Assembly (NCBI RefSeq): GCF_007754425.1
Contig: NZ_CP037452.1
Coordinates: 6,923,164-6,987,163, forward strand
Origin: Gimesia fumaroli
GTDB lineage: Bacteria > Planctomycetota > Planctomycetia > Planctomycetales > Planctomycetaceae
Length of the DNA stretch: 64,000 nucleotides
Direction: 5' to 3'
The position numbers and the translations under genes are program-made. Below are positions 7,456-44,590 of this stretch, piece after piece. Positions within the stretch are counted from its first letter, which is position 1. Each line of letters opens with the position of its first letter. The notes under the pieces are model-generated. The model did no database searches and was not told where the DNA came from. It was given only the letters and a program-made list of their open reading frames with translations.

Positions 7456-7598
7456 GCGATAATTGTGCGTGTTTACATCTCGCTCATGATAGAAAAACAT
7501 CCCGATACGTTCCGAGATTCACACCAGATCAGACGTGCATGTGCCATCGCTAGACTGGTCCGATGGTGCTGGTTTATAACGCTGCCAACCCGTGTTAC

Positions 7599-7737
7599 GG
7601 AAGAGGCGGCCCTATATGGCCGCCCGCAGGGCTTGCGCGGTATTTATGTCGACGTGCGAATGTTTTTTCTGGTTCCACTCACAACCTGAAACAATGTTGA
7701 ATCTCGCCAGGCGGGCGAGCACACAGACTCGCCCCTA
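7599..7737 (+). repeat. Dispersed hairpin repeat, copy interrupted at its 3' edge by a group II intron
   Basis: 139 bp matching the repeat at 42470-42607 and, inverted, the intact copy at 37623-37763. It has two hairpins: GCGGCC-CTATAT-GGCCGC (7606-7623) near the left end and GGGCGAG-N8-CTCGCCC ending at 7733. The left terminus is degenerate (GGAAGAGGCGGCC where the other copies have GTAGGGTGCGGCC). The shared segment ACAACCTGAAAC (7681-7692) also occurs in the 42.5-kb copy. The element ends in CCCCTA at 7737, exactly where the intron begins. Short open frames across it are not genes. Confidence 0.75.
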
Positions 7738-9670
7738 GTGCGCCTGCAAGCGCATTGAATCAGCGAAGTGAAAGTCCTTGCCGAAGTTTGACCTGAACTT
7801 CGTAACAGAAGGTAACTGCGTTCTCGTGAGAGGAGGTGGAGAGCAACCGGATGTGAACGACTAGTCCGTAGGATAACGAACTCGATTCGGCTTTTCGTTG
7901 TGGTGAGCCAGCTAGGGAATGGCGAAGCCCAAGTGACGTCGTGCGAAACTCTGCCGAGTGGGTGCGGGACCGCTGCCAGCGGTTCCGCGACGGTCAGCCC
8001 CGTGGTTCAAAACCAGGTCGGTCCCGGGGGCAACGAGGGGTGGTTGGAGACGGAATGGTCTGAAGGTTTGATGTGATGAAGCAGGGAGACCTGCCCGATC
8101 TTAAGGATGGCGTTCATGTGCCGGATTCCGGATTCTCTGGAGCCGACCGGTACGAAGAGCCAGTTGGGTAGGAGTCAGAGCATCCATATTAGCGAAGAAG
8201 CGGGGTAACGCCCGTGGAGCAAAGGGATGCAGGAAGGTAGATGTGGAATGAACCGAAACAGGGAACAAAAACCGACGCGAGTGCCGTTTGCGGCTAAACA
8301 AGTCGGAGAAGCTTCGTCCCGCTGGGACTGGGTAGAACCATGTGTCTGGACAGACCGCATGTTGACGGCCCTCGAAACGGGGGTGAAAGGAGGCCAATGG
8401 TTCAGTCTGATCGATAAAGTCGATCGTGATCGAAATTTGTATCAGGCGTTTCGTAGAGTAGCCGCCAACGGCGGTGCAGCTGGTGTGGATCACGTCAGCT
8501 GCGAACGCTTCGCCGAGCGATTGATCCCGAACCTGAGAAAGCTGTCGCAACAACTGCGGGAAGGAAACTACCAACCGCAGGCAATCCGGCGACAGTGGAT
8601 TCCCAAGCCGGGGAGCAGGGAACTGCGTCCTCTGGGGATTCCCACAGCTCGGGATCGGGTGGTGCAGACCACATTACGCCAAGTGCTGGAACCAATCTTC
8701 GAACGGGATTTCGCCGAGCAAAGCTATGGTTTCCGTCCCGGGCGCGGCTGTAAGGATGCGCTACAGCGTGTCGATACGCTGCTCGAAAGCGGTTACACAT
8801 ATGTGGTGGATGCAGATTTGAAGAGCTATTTCGACACAATTCCCCACGATAAGTTGATGAATCGGGTCCGGGAGAAAATCAGCGACGGCCAGGTGCTGAC
8901 GCTGATCGAGATGTTTCTGCGTCAACAGATTCTAGATGACCTTGCCGAATGGACTCCCGATCGTGGGAGCCCCCAGGGAGCGGTGATCAGCCCGTTGCTC
9001 AGCAACATCTATCTCGATCCCCTCGACCATTTGATGGCGGGAGCCGGAATTGAGATGGTCCGTTACGCAGACGACTTCGTGATTTTGTGTCGAACTCGGG
9101 AAGACGCCGAGCGAGCTTTGGAGATGGTGCGGCAGTGGACGGCGGAAGCCGGCCTGACGCTGCATCCGGACAAGACTCACATCGTCGACATGGCCGAGGG
9201 GAGCTTCGATTTTCTGGGTTACACTTTCCAGGGGCGTTATCGCTTCCCTCGAAAGAAAAGTCTCCAGAAATTCAAAGACTCCATTCGGCAGAAGACGAGG
9301 CGGACGAACGGGCATAGCCTTCAATGCATCATTGCACAGCTCAACCCGACGCTACGTGGCTGGTTCAATTATTTTCAACACTGCCAGCCTTCCACGTATA
9401 CCATCCTGGATCAGTGGGTTCGCATGCGTCTGCGAAGTATACTTCGGAAACGTCGTAAAGGCAAAGGTCGCGGACGAGGACACGATCATTTACGCTGGCC
9501 CAATGCTTATTTTGCCGAACAGGGACTGTTCTCCTTGAAACAATCCCATGTTCTGGCCAGTCAATCCTCGCAGAGGTAAAACTACCAACCGGAGAGCCGG
9601 ATGCGGGAGAACCGCACGTCCGGTTCGGAGGGAGGGGGGACCGGAAGCAACCGGTCCTTCCTACCCCTAT
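7738..9670 (+). mobile_element. Group II intron, copy 1 (ribozyme plus RT/maturase)
   Basis: 1933 bp. The 5' end begins GTGCG, the canonical group II start; the 3' end is CCCCTAT. Domain V is visible at 9594-9626: a GAGCCGGA/TCCGGTTC stem with an inner TGCGG/CCGCA stem, a CG bulge and the catalytic AGC at 9595-9597. Domain VI follows (GGACCGG/CCGGTCC stem), with a candidate branch A at 9663, eight bases from the end. The RT gene lies in domain IV. Boundaries are supported by loss of identity with the second copy on both sides and by the uninterrupted target at 37.6 kb, where CCCCTA is followed by C, the same base that begins both 3' exons. The protein lacks an HNH domain and the target is a hairpin, as for class C introns, but the AGC triad argues against simple class C; I leave the class open. 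Confidence 0.93.
8227..9579 (+). CDS. ltrA: Group II intron reverse transcriptase/maturase (copy 1)
   Basis: 450 aa. The RT domain covers about residues 60-330: RQWIPKPGSRELRPLGIPT, YGFRPGRGCKDAL, VVDADLKSYFDTIPH, GSPQGAVISPLLSNIYLDPLD and the active site YADD at 280-283. It is followed by the maturase/thumb region (LRGWFNYFQHCQ) and a basic tail with RWPNAYFAEQGLFSL. There is no HNH endonuclease, so retrohoming probably uses strand-invasion at single-stranded or hairpin targets. ATG 8227 is taken as the start; ATG 8248 (MNRNREQ) after AGGAAGG is equally plausible. It differs from copy 2 at base 8671 (A here, G there), giving Thr versus Ala in VVQTTLRQV. Confidence 0.95.
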   Translation: MQEGRCGMNRNREQKPTRVPFAAKQVGEASSRWDWVEPCVWTDRMLTALETGVKGGQWFSLIDKVDRDRNLYQAFRRVAANGGAAGVDHVSCERFAERLIPNLRKLSQQLREGNYQPQAIRRQWIPKPGSRELRPLGIPTARDRVVQTTLRQVLEPIFERDFAEQSYGFRPGRGCKDALQRVDTLLESGYTYVVDADLKSYFDTIPHDKLMNRVREKISDGQVLTLIEMFLRQQILDDLAEWTPDRGSPQGAVISPLLSNIYLDPLDHLMAGAGIEMVRYADDFVILCRTREDAERALEMVRQWTAEAGLTLHPDKTHIVDMAEGSFDFLGYTFQGRYRFPRKKSLQKFKDSIRQKTRRTNGHSLQCIIAQLNPTLRGWFNYFQHCQPSTYTILDQWVRMRLRSILRKRRKGKGRGRGHDHLRWPNAYFAEQGLFSLKQSHVLASQSSQR

Positions 9671-9705
9671 CCAGAAAATTGCCGTTTTCTATTTCCGCGC
9701 ATGCG

Positions 9706-14649: not shown

Positions 14650-14726
14650 ATCAATAACCGGCCCTCCAGTCGGTATGACAGGGTTGTAAGTCTTACATTT
14701 CACGGCTCAAACTCCGGGTTTTCGCT

Positions 14727-14741
14727 TTGCAAGAATTGCAA
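14727..14741. promoter_or_regulatory. Candidate enhancer-type dyad upstream of the sigma-54 promoter
   Basis: TTGCAAGAATTGCAA is two self-complementary TTGCAA hexamers spaced by three bases. Its centre is about 140 bp upstream of the start predicted from the -24/-12 promoter at 14848, the usual distance for binding sites of sigma-54 activators. It is further flanked by TTCGC (14721-14725) and GCGAA (14753-14757). No binding evidence exists; this is inference from position and symmetry. Confidence 0.35.
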
Positions 14742-14847
14742 TTTGACTTAATGCGAAACAGCACGTCAGAAAAACAAAAAATGAATTTCCCTTGTTTTCA
14801 GGCGTTATAGAACGATTGGCGAAAAAAGAGGAAATGCTCCGAGTCGA

Positions 14848-14864
14848 TTGGCACGGTTACTGCA
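14848..14864 (+). promoter_or_regulatory. Sigma-54 (RpoN) -24/-12 promoter
   Basis: TTGGCACGGTTACTGCA matches the RpoN consensus (YTGGCACG-N4-TTGCA) at all but one position (C for T at the first base of the -12 block). GG (14850-14851) and GC (14862-14863) are separated by exactly 10 bases, as required. It is intergenic, and no coding gene starts for over 1 kb downstream on this strand, so it appears to drive a non-coding transcript starting near 14875. Confidence 0.7.
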
Positions 14865-14874
14865 TTATGTCTGC

Positions 14875-15052
14875 TCTGGGTAAAGAGAGAGACCCATCGA
14901 ATTTTAAAGAGTTGAGAGACTTTAAAATTCAAGAGAAGAGAGAGACAATCCTTCCGACCCGTGGAGGCGGGTCAGCCCATCCTGGGCCACTCCAAAACAT
15001 CATCCCCATCTTAGAGCCGAGAGAATTCCCGTATTCTCTCGGCCCTTTCTCA
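14875..15052 (+). ncRNA. Putative sigma-54-dependent structured small RNA
   Basis: A roughly 175-nt intergenic stretch directly downstream of the -24/-12 promoter folds by eye into five consecutive hairpins: TGGGT/ACCCA (14877-14896), GAATTTTAAAG/CTTTAAAATTC (14899-14930), GACCCG/CGGGTC with loop TGGAGG (14956-14973), GCCCA/TGGGC (14975-14987) and an 11-bp GCCGAGAGAAT/ATTCTCTCGGC hairpin (15016-15043) followed by CCTTTCTCATT, a moderate terminator on the plus strand. Between them are purine-rich AGAGAG tracts and C-rich patches such as CTCC that could pair with Shine-Dalgarno sequences. A frame across the region (14792-15160) starts upstream of the promoter and has no coding character. Promoter, structure and terminator in one block support a regulatory RNA; expression is unproven. 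Confidence 0.55.
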
Positions 15053-42425: not shown

Positions 42426-42469
42426 GTTGGCTGGTACTTTTTAGAGAATCACTTCCAACGTGTGTTGCA

Positions 42470-42607
42470 GTAGGGTGCGGCCCTGTGTGGCCACCCGCAG
42501 GGTTGAAGTGGTATTCGTGTCGACTTCGAATGGTTCTTCTGGTTCCATTCACAACCTGAAACAAAGTTGAGTCCCGCCAGGCGGGCGAGCACATAGACTC
42601 GCCCCTA
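42470..42607 (+). repeat. Dispersed hairpin repeat, second intron-interrupted copy
   Basis: 138 bp beginning GTAGGGTGCGGCC and ending GGGCGAG-N8-CTCGCCCCTA, in the same orientation as the copy at 7.6 kb. The left terminus keeps the GTAGGG motif that is degenerate there. The inner hairpin stems are slightly diverged (GTGTGG where the intact copy has ATGTGG), so the elements are older than the introns inserted in them. It starts 45 bp after the sigma-54 activator stop. Confidence 0.75.
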
Positions 42608-44540
42608 GTGCGCCTGCAAGCGCATTGAATCAGCGAAGTGAAAGTCCTTGCCGAAGTTTGACCTGAACTTCGTAACAGAAGGTAACTGCGTTCTCGTGAG
42701 AGGAGGTGGAGAGCAACCGGATGTGAACGACTAGTCCGTAGGATAACGAACTCGATTCGGCTTTTCGTTGTGGTGAGCCAGCTAGGGAATGGCGAAGCCC
42801 AAGTGACGTCGTGCGAAACTCTGCCGAGTGGGTGCGGGACCGCTGCCAGCGGTTCCGCGACGGTCAGCCCCGTGGTTCAAAACCAGGTCGGTCCCGGGGG
42901 CAACGAGGGGTGGTTGGAGACGGAATGGTCTGAAGGTTTGATGTGATGAAGCAGGGAGACCTGCCCGATCTTAAGGATGGCGTTCATGTGCCGGATTCCG
43001 GATTCTCTGGAGCCGACCGGTACGAAGAGCCAGTTGGGTAGGAGTCAGAGCATCCATATTAGCGAAGAAGCGGGGTAACGCCCGTGGAGCAAAGGGATGC
43101 AGGAAGGTAGATGTGGAATGAACCGAAACAGGGAACAAAAACCGACGCGAGTGCCGTTTGCGGCTAAACAAGTCGGAGAAGCTTCGTCCCGCTGGGACTG
43201 GGTAGAACCATGTGTCTGGACAGACCGCATGTTGACGGCCCTCGAAACGGGGGTGAAAGGAGGCCAATGGTTCAGTCTGATCGATAAAGTCGATCGTGAT
43301 CGAAATTTGTATCAGGCGTTTCGTAGAGTAGCCGCCAACGGCGGTGCAGCTGGTGTGGATCACGTCAGCTGCGAACGCTTCGCCGAGCGATTGATCCCGA
43401 ACCTGAGAAAGCTGTCGCAACAACTGCGGGAAGGAAACTACCAACCGCAGGCAATCCGGCGACAGTGGATTCCCAAGCCGGGGAGCAGGGAACTGCGTCC
43501 TCTGGGGATTCCCACAGCTCGGGATCGGGTGGTGCAGACCGCATTACGCCAAGTGCTGGAACCAATCTTCGAACGGGATTTCGCCGAGCAAAGCTATGGT
43601 TTCCGTCCCGGGCGCGGCTGTAAGGATGCGCTACAGCGTGTCGATACGCTGCTCGAAAGCGGTTACACATATGTGGTGGATGCAGATTTGAAGAGCTATT
43701 TCGACACAATTCCCCACGATAAGTTGATGAATCGGGTCCGGGAGAAAATCAGCGACGGCCAGGTGCTGACGCTGATCGAGATGTTTCTGCGTCAACAGAT
43801 TCTAGATGACCTTGCCGAATGGACTCCCGATCGTGGGAGCCCCCAGGGAGCGGTGATCAGCCCGTTGCTCAGCAACATCTATCTCGATCCCCTCGACCAT
43901 TTGATGGCGGGAGCCGGAATTGAGATGGTCCGTTACGCAGACGACTTCGTGATTTTGTGTCGAACTCGGGAAGACGCCGAGCGAGCTTTGGAGATGGTGC
44001 GGCAGTGGACGGCGGAAGCCGGCCTGACGCTGCATCCGGACAAGACTCACATCGTCGACATGGCCGAGGGGAGCTTCGATTTTCTGGGTTACACTTTCCA
44101 GGGGCGTTATCGCTTCCCTCGAAAGAAAAGTCTCCAGAAATTCAAAGACTCCATTCGGCAGAAGACGAGGCGGACGAACGGGCATAGCCTTCAATGCATC
44201 ATTGCACAGCTCAACCCGACGCTACGTGGCTGGTTCAATTATTTTCAACACTGCCAGCCTTCCACGTATACCATCCTGGATCAGTGGGTTCGCATGCGTC
44301 TGCGAAGTATACTTCGGAAACGTCGTAAAGGCAAAGGTCGCGGACGAGGACACGATCATTTACGCTGGCCCAATGCTTATTTTGCCGAACAGGGACTGTT
44401 CTCCTTGAAACAATCCCATGTTCTGGCCAGTCAATCCTCGCAGAGGTAAAACTACCAACCGGAGAGCCGGATGCGGGAGAACCGCACGTCCGGTTCGGAG
44501 GGAGGGGGGACCGGAAGCAACCGGTCCTTCCTACCCCTAT
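42608..44540 (+). mobile_element. Group II intron, copy 2
   Basis: 1933 bp, aligned to copy 1 with a constant offset of 34870 and no indels. The only difference I find is G at 43541 versus A at 8671. The 5' GTGCG, domain V (44464-44496), domain VI and the 3' CCCCTAT are the same. The left flank is again CCCCTA of the dispersed repeat; the right flank begins with C and is otherwise unrelated to that of copy 1. Identity indicates very recent mobility or gene conversion. I compared the text by eye, so a few missed differences are possible. Confidence 0.93.
43097..44449 (+). CDS. ltrA: Group II intron reverse transcriptase/maturase (copy 2)
   Basis: 450 aa, identical to copy 1 except Ala for Thr in VVQTALRQV (base 43541). 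The RT active site YADD is at residues 280-283; the thumb/maturase region and basic C-terminus are complete and no HNH domain is present. The frame is intact in both copies, so both may be functional. The alternative start at 43118 is equally possible. A long antisense frame at 42971-43444 is a shadow without protein features. Confidence 0.95.
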   Translation: MQEGRCGMNRNREQKPTRVPFAAKQVGEASSRWDWVEPCVWTDRMLTALETGVKGGQWFSLIDKVDRDRNLYQAFRRVAANGGAAGVDHVSCERFAERLIPNLRKLSQQLREGNYQPQAIRRQWIPKPGSRELRPLGIPTARDRVVQTALRQVLEPIFERDFAEQSYGFRPGRGCKDALQRVDTLLESGYTYVVDADLKSYFDTIPHDKLMNRVREKISDGQVLTLIEMFLRQQILDDLAEWTPDRGSPQGAVISPLLSNIYLDPLDHLMAGAGIEMVRYADDFVILCRTREDAERALEMVRQWTAEAGLTLHPDKTHIVDMAEGSFDFLGYTFQGRYRFPRKKSLQKFKDSIRQKTRRTNGHSLQCIIAQLNPTLRGWFNYFQHCQPSTYTILDQWVRMRLRSILRKRRKGKGRGRGHDHLRWPNAYFAEQGLFSLKQSHVLASQSSQR

Positions 44541-44590
44541 CGTTTCAATCGCCAGATTGCATTCGGGTCTGATGGGGAGAGCAGGGGGCT

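Follow-up and report, generated by a model that had tools for sequence, protein, structure and literature searches.

A very probable sigma-54-type structured RNA gene in Gimesia with homologues elsewhere in the Planctomycetia

The locus and its sigma-54-type promoter

The window analysed here is a 64-kb stretch of the genome of Gimesia fumaroli, which is a single contig of 7.70 Mb. Within it, a sigma-54 (-24/-12) promoter and a series of predicted hairpins lie between a gene for a transglutaminase-core protein and the RNase III gene, rnc (Table 1). The first-pass annotation had named the flanking genes as transglutaminase and rnc, and the identification of both proteins agrees with this. It had also described more than 1 kb without a plus-strand coding gene after the promoter, and the next such gene is indeed that of a trypsin/PDZ protease. 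Two sigma-54 activator domains, likewise attributed to the window, were found near 34.6 and 41.5 kb. Elsewhere in the window, the same-strand segments 7582-9671 and 42452-44541 agree at 98.7% over ~2.1 kb, and the end of each is matched by an Rfam group II intron (9592-9670 and 44462-44540); these are apparently two group II intron copies 35 kb apart.

Table 1. Coordinates of the genes, predicted RNA elements and putative regulatory sites (positions within the window)
Feature	Position	Strand	Basis
Transglutaminase-core protein gene	upstream of RNA	+	
UAS1, palindrome TTGTAAGTCTTACAT, putative activator (EBP) site	14684-14698	n/a	conservation; motif elsewhere
UAS2, palindrome TTGCAAGAATTGCAA, putative activator (EBP) site	14727-14741	n/a	43 bp from UAS1
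Sigma-54 (-24/-12) promoter TTGGCACGGTTACTGCA	14848-14864	+	consensus match; conservation; homologues' own copies
Predicted small RNA, ~176 nt	14875-~15050	+	start inferred from -12 element, end from terminator
Hairpin H1, loop AAAGAGAGAG	14878-14895	+	Gimesia consensus fold
Hairpin H2, loop AGTTGAGAGA	14899-14930	+	consensus fold; paired changes
Purine-rich linker with GAGAGAGA	14931-14949	+	GAGAGA excess
Hairpin H3, loop GGAG	14956-14973	+	paired changes
Hairpin H4 (Gimesia copies)	14975-14987	+	consensus fold
C-rich, G-poor linker, candidate antisense region	14988-15013	+	predicted unpaired
Terminator hairpin, loop TCCCGT	15016-15043	+	paired changes; CCCG kept
RNase III gene (rnc)	downstream of RNA	-	
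Trypsin/PDZ protease gene, next plus-strand gene after RNA	starts 16353	+	

In the promoter, GG (14850-14851) and GC (14862-14863) are separated by exactly 10 bases and the RpoN consensus is matched at all but one position, where C stands for T before TGC, as had been read from the sequence at first. With the deviating place written as Y, this consensus had its sole match in the window at the promoter, even when one mismatch was allowed; the chance expectation for the pattern in the window is 0.24, and 22 of 100 shuffles contained at least one match. Across the 7.7-Mb genome, TGGCACGN5TGCW occurs at 12 sites against 3 for the reversed control. Other perfect sigma-54 promoters of this genome stand ahead of short frames at L189, L191, L194 and L199, which, judged by eye, look like those of a DUF421-type membrane protein, a CsbD-like protein, a DUF3309-like protein and a secreted protein, and this hints at a stress-type sigma-54 regulon.

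Conservation and fold of the predicted RNA

A BLAST search of 59 genomes matched 17, the window's own among them, and all 17 are of one genus; in all counts given here, Gimesia stands for this genus. None of the 42 genomes outside the genus was matched. When the relatives sharing the flanking genes were compared, the promoter, the RNA and both neighbours (transglutaminase gene upstream, rnc downstream) proved to be kept in 17/17 Gimesia genomes. Mean pairwise identity among them is 0.90 for the promoter block (14848-14868), 0.74 for 14869-14883 and 0.93 for the RNA (14884-15050), compared with 0.66 and 0.51 at the ends of the two flanking genes and 0.29 in the DNA directly after the RNA; the RNA is therefore better kept than the ends of its neighbour genes.

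Five hairpins had been proposed for the 175 nt after the promoter. All five are present in the consensus fold of the 17 Gimesia copies, but the single-sequence best folds of the window contain four only, with H1 missing and its strand paired elsewhere. The proposed T-containing, terminator-type 3' end was upheld as regards a hairpin near the 3' end, while the tract itself is only moderately T-rich (CCCTTTCT). The plus strand folds better than shuffled sequences (z = -4.2, 0/200) and the minus strand equally well (z = -4.2), and folding energy was therefore rejected as evidence for the strand. The kinds of base pair fit an RNA read from the plus strand, since the Gimesia pairs include 35 G.U cells (17 of them from one invariant U.G pair) against no A.C cells; over 55 homologues G.U cells are in modest excess (47 against 25 A.C).

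Changes on both sides of a pair were counted in three alignments: A1, a MAFFT alignment of the 17 Gimesia rows (15 distinct); A3, a MAFFT alignment of 15 sequences from several genera that was unfitted to structure and left out L053, L055 and L058 of the 18 core sequences; and A4, the 55 homologues in an alignment fitted to its own covariance model. In A1, 99.6% of the cells at 37 pairs are paired, sliding the partners destroys the pairing, and 5/37 pairs had changed on both sides against 2.1 in shuffles. As most of these pairs never vary, the covariation evidence within Gimesia comes from the terminator and H2, where 4/11 pairs had changed on both sides and three more show one-sided G.U changes. 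The letters of H1 and the pairs of H4 are invariant in the 17 copies, so that neither hairpin has covariation evidence.

Across genera, both-side changes were seen in 12 of the 20 pairs of A3 (5.6 in shuffles) and in 17 of the 20 pairs of the model-fitted A4, where they amount to 191 cells against 57.9. They involve 4/7 pairs of H3 in A3 (6/7 in A4, model-fitted) and 8/13 pairs of the terminator stem (11/13 in A4, model-fitted). While the terminator stem changes in pairs, 50 of the 55 homologues have CCCG within its loop or next to it. The RNA has a median length of 178 nt (range 140-373 nt, n = 53), the variation arising because a few loci have their promoter 200-270 nt ahead of the core.

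Homologues, promoters and upstream palindromes beyond the genus

Covariance models were built because BLAST had found nothing outside the genus. All were promoter-free: R1 represents the 17 Gimesia copies and starts after the promoter, and R2 and R3 represent the core. At E-values that are rough, R1 matched 35/170 family genomes (E ≤ 1; 18 outside Gimesia, several of them weak), R2 matched 75/397 class genomes (E ≤ 0.01) and R3 matched 79/397 (E ≤ 0.001). The R3 set comprises 61 genomes of the window's family, from 26 genera and with 15 genomes of Gimesia, and 18 genomes of other families; R3 had no match in at least 20 genomes of the family. Rfam offered no credible family for the window RNA at gathering or relaxed thresholds, the relaxed search returning chance-level matches only, and no family match at 8 homologue loci.

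A 23-base pattern for H3 matched 21 stretches from named genomes, 11 of them labelled Gimesia, Planctomycet- or similar. The 10 from other phyla were set aside as chance, as they reach at most 20.5 bits with R3 (E 0.001) against 60-97 for five Planctomycete ones. RpoN presence was likewise rejected as a marker of RNA-bearing genomes, since it was found in 42/42 genomes, although the RNA was detected in only 22 of them and not in the other 20. One genome, G169, carries two different copies of the RNA (L140 and L145), both of which have a UAS and a strong sigma-54 promoter; these are either paralogues or the product of a mixed assembly (contamination ~2%).

For hits from these promoter-blind searches, the best sigma-54 match within 320 nt upstream was scored out of 25; the scan of out-of-family hits reached 350 nt, and 1632 segments of the same loci, each 295 nt long, served as controls. 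A score of at least 22 was obtained upstream of 48/56 hits, made up of 3/8 outside the family and 45/48 within it (the 48 include one weak hit and are uneven, genus g71 supplying 15 of them), against 17/1632 control segments; at 23 or above, the counts were 42/56 and 3/1632. At least one locus with a strong promoter (≥22) is present in 24 of 26 non-Gimesia genera. The in-family loci below 22 are L152 (21), L066 (19) and L165 (16), the last of which is probably a false hit, being a weak R2 match that has no promoter and is lost with R3. Four R1 hits lie outside that set, and of these L055 (22) and L056 (24.5) pass and L057 (20.5) and L058 (18.5) fail. The first reading of the locus as a structured noncoding unit of sigma-54 type is supported by comparative evidence. 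Other genera keep the RNA with its own promoter and often with other neighbours. We consider it very probable, on these alignments and searches, that the locus is a conserved sigma-54-type structured RNA gene.

Upstream of the promoter, UAS1 and UAS2 fit the palindrome TTGYAAN3TTRCAA at 11/12 and 12/12 positions. UAS1 aligns in 17/17 Gimesia and UAS2 is visible in the same alignment, with mean pairwise identities of 0.89 for the UAS1 block (14685-14700), 0.77 for the block over UAS2 (14730-14745) and 0.58 and 0.50 for the two spacers. The exact motif occurs at two places only in the genome, UAS2 and L019 (~1501); at L019 it lies ~50 bp before a 424-aa frame, and no sigma-54 site of at least 22 is nearby. 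In other genera the motif recurs before the promoter, the best site reaching at least 10/12 in 40/50 loci against 4.7% of shuffles, and two sites of this quality (shared half-sites allowed) being present in 25/50 loci against 0.1%; these palindromes mostly lie ~120-180 bp ahead of the -24 element. The genome has 11 further perfect sigma-54 sites; setting aside 4 that fall within long frames, none of the 7 examined has a palindrome of at least 10/12.

The palindromes look like activator sites. Since the motif precedes the RNA promoters but not the seven other sigma-54 promoters, its distribution suggests that the RNA promoter is served by a dedicated sigma-54 activator of its own. The genome has 23 activator-domain matches, of which 14 are strong and the weak ones doubtful because the same search also matches in control genomes. 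A palindrome of at least 11/12 is absent from all 23 loci (~1.5 kb each side), and the two activators of the window accordingly show no tie to the RNA. Near the homologues, an activator-like gene was found at 1/58 loci, as a weak match, in neighbourhoods of mostly ~2 kb per side.

Outside the family, a promoter of at least 22 precedes 11 of 19 hits; a UAS of at least 10 accompanies it in 8 of the 11, in one case at an odd distance. The clear cases belong to family f5, namely L230, L231, L233 and L234 (four genomes of one genus) and L235 and L238 (two genomes of another); they have promoter scores of 23-25, UAS scores of 11-12 and CCCGC in the terminator loop, and the rest of the RNA differs. 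In L235 and L238 the promoter is of the same type, a pair of UAS palindromes is present and the terminator loop contains CCCGC, but the letters otherwise differ. The other 8 hits fall below the promoter threshold (L227 narrowly, at 21.5) and most of them are probably chance terminators. On the out-of-family loci that share promoter and UAS, few as they are, the sigma-54-RNA circuit seems to predate the window's family.

Mode of action and its alternatives

What is seen at these loci is a -24/-12 promoter, palindromes and a predicted hairpin-ended, structured noncoding RNA, together, beside different genes across genera. Hfq was found in 0/40 genomes; the control was positive in 5/14 genomes, and the search could overlook an Hfq that has diverged strongly. 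The linker that precedes the terminator contains 46% C and 10% G over 55 homologues, outside Gimesia it keeps its composition rather than its letters, and in the window RNA its mean unpaired probability is 0.83, that of the terminator loop being 1.0. CACCUC, which forms the core of the anti-Shine-Dalgarno sequence, is present 31 times where shuffles give 5.4, and 28/53 RNAs contain it; in the same 53 RNAs TCCC shows no excess (110 against 112.8) and CTCC is rarer than in shuffles (35 against 89.4). Because Hfq was not found, the linker is C-rich and predicted to be unpaired, and CACCUC is in excess, pairing with ribosome-binding sites without Hfq is favoured.

We therefore favour, at a probability of roughly 0.5, an RNA driven by sigma-54 and a dedicated activator that would act as an Hfq-independent antisense regulator on ribosome-binding sites. 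An activator of the sigma-54 type (EBP) that seems to serve this promoter alone would bind TTGYAAN3TTRCAA upstream and, on some signal, open the RpoN polymerase, giving the ~176-nt RNA, which would act in trans and pair without Hfq. It would do so through C-rich stretches that are predicted to be unpaired, with AUCCCC in Gimesia and both CACCUC and CCACC in many homologues, and through the exposed CCCG terminator loop; the partners would be G-rich ribosome-binding sites on at least one mRNA, and the outcome would be repression. GAG-rich loops may offer a second surface to a protein or a pyrimidine-rich RNA. A search of the window's own genome for the complement of CAUCAUCCCCAUCU with at most one mismatch gave 15 matches, one of them the RNA locus, against 15 for the reversed control, and none lay at a convincing start region. 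In Firmicutes, C-rich UCCC motifs of RsaE/RoxS and RNAIII have G-rich ribosome-binding sites as targets, those of RNAIII and RsaE pairing with the Shine-Dalgarno sequences, according to PMC9217828; here such pairing is a candidate only.

A protein sponge, in which repeated GAG/GAGAGA in loops and linker would titrate an RNA-binding protein as CsrB- or CrcZ-type RNAs do, appears unlikely. GAGAGA is in excess (77 against 13.9 in shuffles, in 28/53 RNAs), and the H3 loop has GAG in 54/55 homologues and GGA in 46/55. CsrA-type sponges, however, carry several GGA sites, whereas there is a single one in the window RNA and, over 53 RNAs, GGA is scarcer than in shuffles (163 against 214), so that by GGA counts a CsrA sponge is unlikely. 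Moreover, 24/53 RNAs are without GAGAG, Hfq as a partner was not found in the genomes searched, and we know of no bacterial GAGA-binding protein. In favour of the sponge, CsrA genes are enriched among predicted Planctomycetia sigma-54 targets, as reported in PMC12316311. It is more doubtful still that antisense pairing would run through the purine-rich GAGAGA, not the C-rich segments, and be directed at UCUC-rich mRNA stretches; the motif is in excess and, in the RNA of the window, predicted to be unpaired for the most part (0.60-0.71), yet 25/53 homologues lack it while CCCG persists at the terminator loop.

The neighbours of the RNA bear on whether it is a free transcript. In non-Gimesia loci, with mostly ~2 kb examined per side, a same-strand transglutaminase gene lies upstream in 15/58, hflX lies downstream on the same strand in 13/58 and murC is a neighbour in 2/58; the remainder have other neighbours or none of these three. 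As neighbours differ among genera, the RNA and its promoter behave as a unit of their own. That the element is instead the terminator or 3' UTR of the upstream transglutaminase gene, possibly processed, would suit the 17/17 Gimesia and those 15 other loci, but a conserved sigma-54 promoter separates gene from RNA and no transglutaminase gene was seen at 43/58 of the other loci within the ~2 kb per side covered for most, which leaves this reading improbable. A leader or attenuator of the downstream gene, as the position of hflX in several genera might suggest, is very improbable, given that the next gene in 17/17 Gimesia, rnc, is on the other strand, that murC or other genes follow elsewhere and that a conserved terminator-type hairpin ends the RNA.

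Open frames of 122 aa on the plus strand and 73 aa on the minus strand, which the first-pass annotation did not mention, run through the RNA region of the window, but across the 17 Gimesia copies 2- and 4-nt indels shift the plus-strand frame and 12/17 have an in-frame stop, so that it is not a conserved gene, and with paired changes in the stems (Gimesia, A3 and A4) the chance that it is a translated small-protein gene is negligible.

The first-pass annotation regarded the architecture as unusual; precedents exist, however, in Qrr and CrcZ. Among activator-driven small RNAs is also GlmY of enterobacteria (GlrR, sigma-54), from which the present RNA differs in having no Rfam match. RsaE/RoxS and RNAIII are not known to be sigma-54-driven. 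Qrr of Vibrio (LuxO, sigma-54) needs Hfq for its action, whereas the Gimesia RNA has no Rfam match and no activator gene beside it, and Hfq was not found. Both are genes for a small RNA that has a sigma-54 promoter to itself, preceded by one or two palindromes as activator sites (putative ones here), which lie ~134-191 bp before the inferred start here and 89-120 bp in V. fluvialis Qrr. The LuxO site, TTGCAW3TGCAA (PMC11443567 and PMC10162802), resembles TTGYAAN3TTRCAA, the palindrome here being two bases longer. CrcZ of Pseudomonas (CbrB, RpoN) is similarly a noncoding RNA with an activator-driven RpoN promoter, but it is 407 nt long and titrates Hfq through A-rich stretches (PMC4063720), and Hfq was not found here. 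In one open-licence library we found no paper on this RNA or on a studied sigma-54 small RNA in Planctomycetes, and the main text of a 2025 survey of predicted sigma-54 regulons, Planctomycetia included, contains neither 'small RNA' nor 'non-coding' as a term.

Returning to the favoured antisense regulator with its own activator, a bolder form of it, which we put forward only tentatively, would be an ancient Planctomycetia riboregulator: one activator-sigma-54-RNA circuit in several families, free of Hfq, with a terminator hairpin doubling as a near-invariant pairing element through its CCCG loop and nearly all the rest of the RNA free to change. If this bolder form is true, the RNA would be a sigma-54 small RNA conserved outside Proteobacteria and controlled by an activator of its own. 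Starting from a single locus, the analysis has arrived at a conserved family of RNAs whose regulatory region is defined, and the upstream motif makes the controlling activator, and hence the signal, testable. A long-conserved RNA with a recognisable switch would provide an entry to the way such an RNA acts without Hfq and to post-transcriptional control in Planctomycetes.
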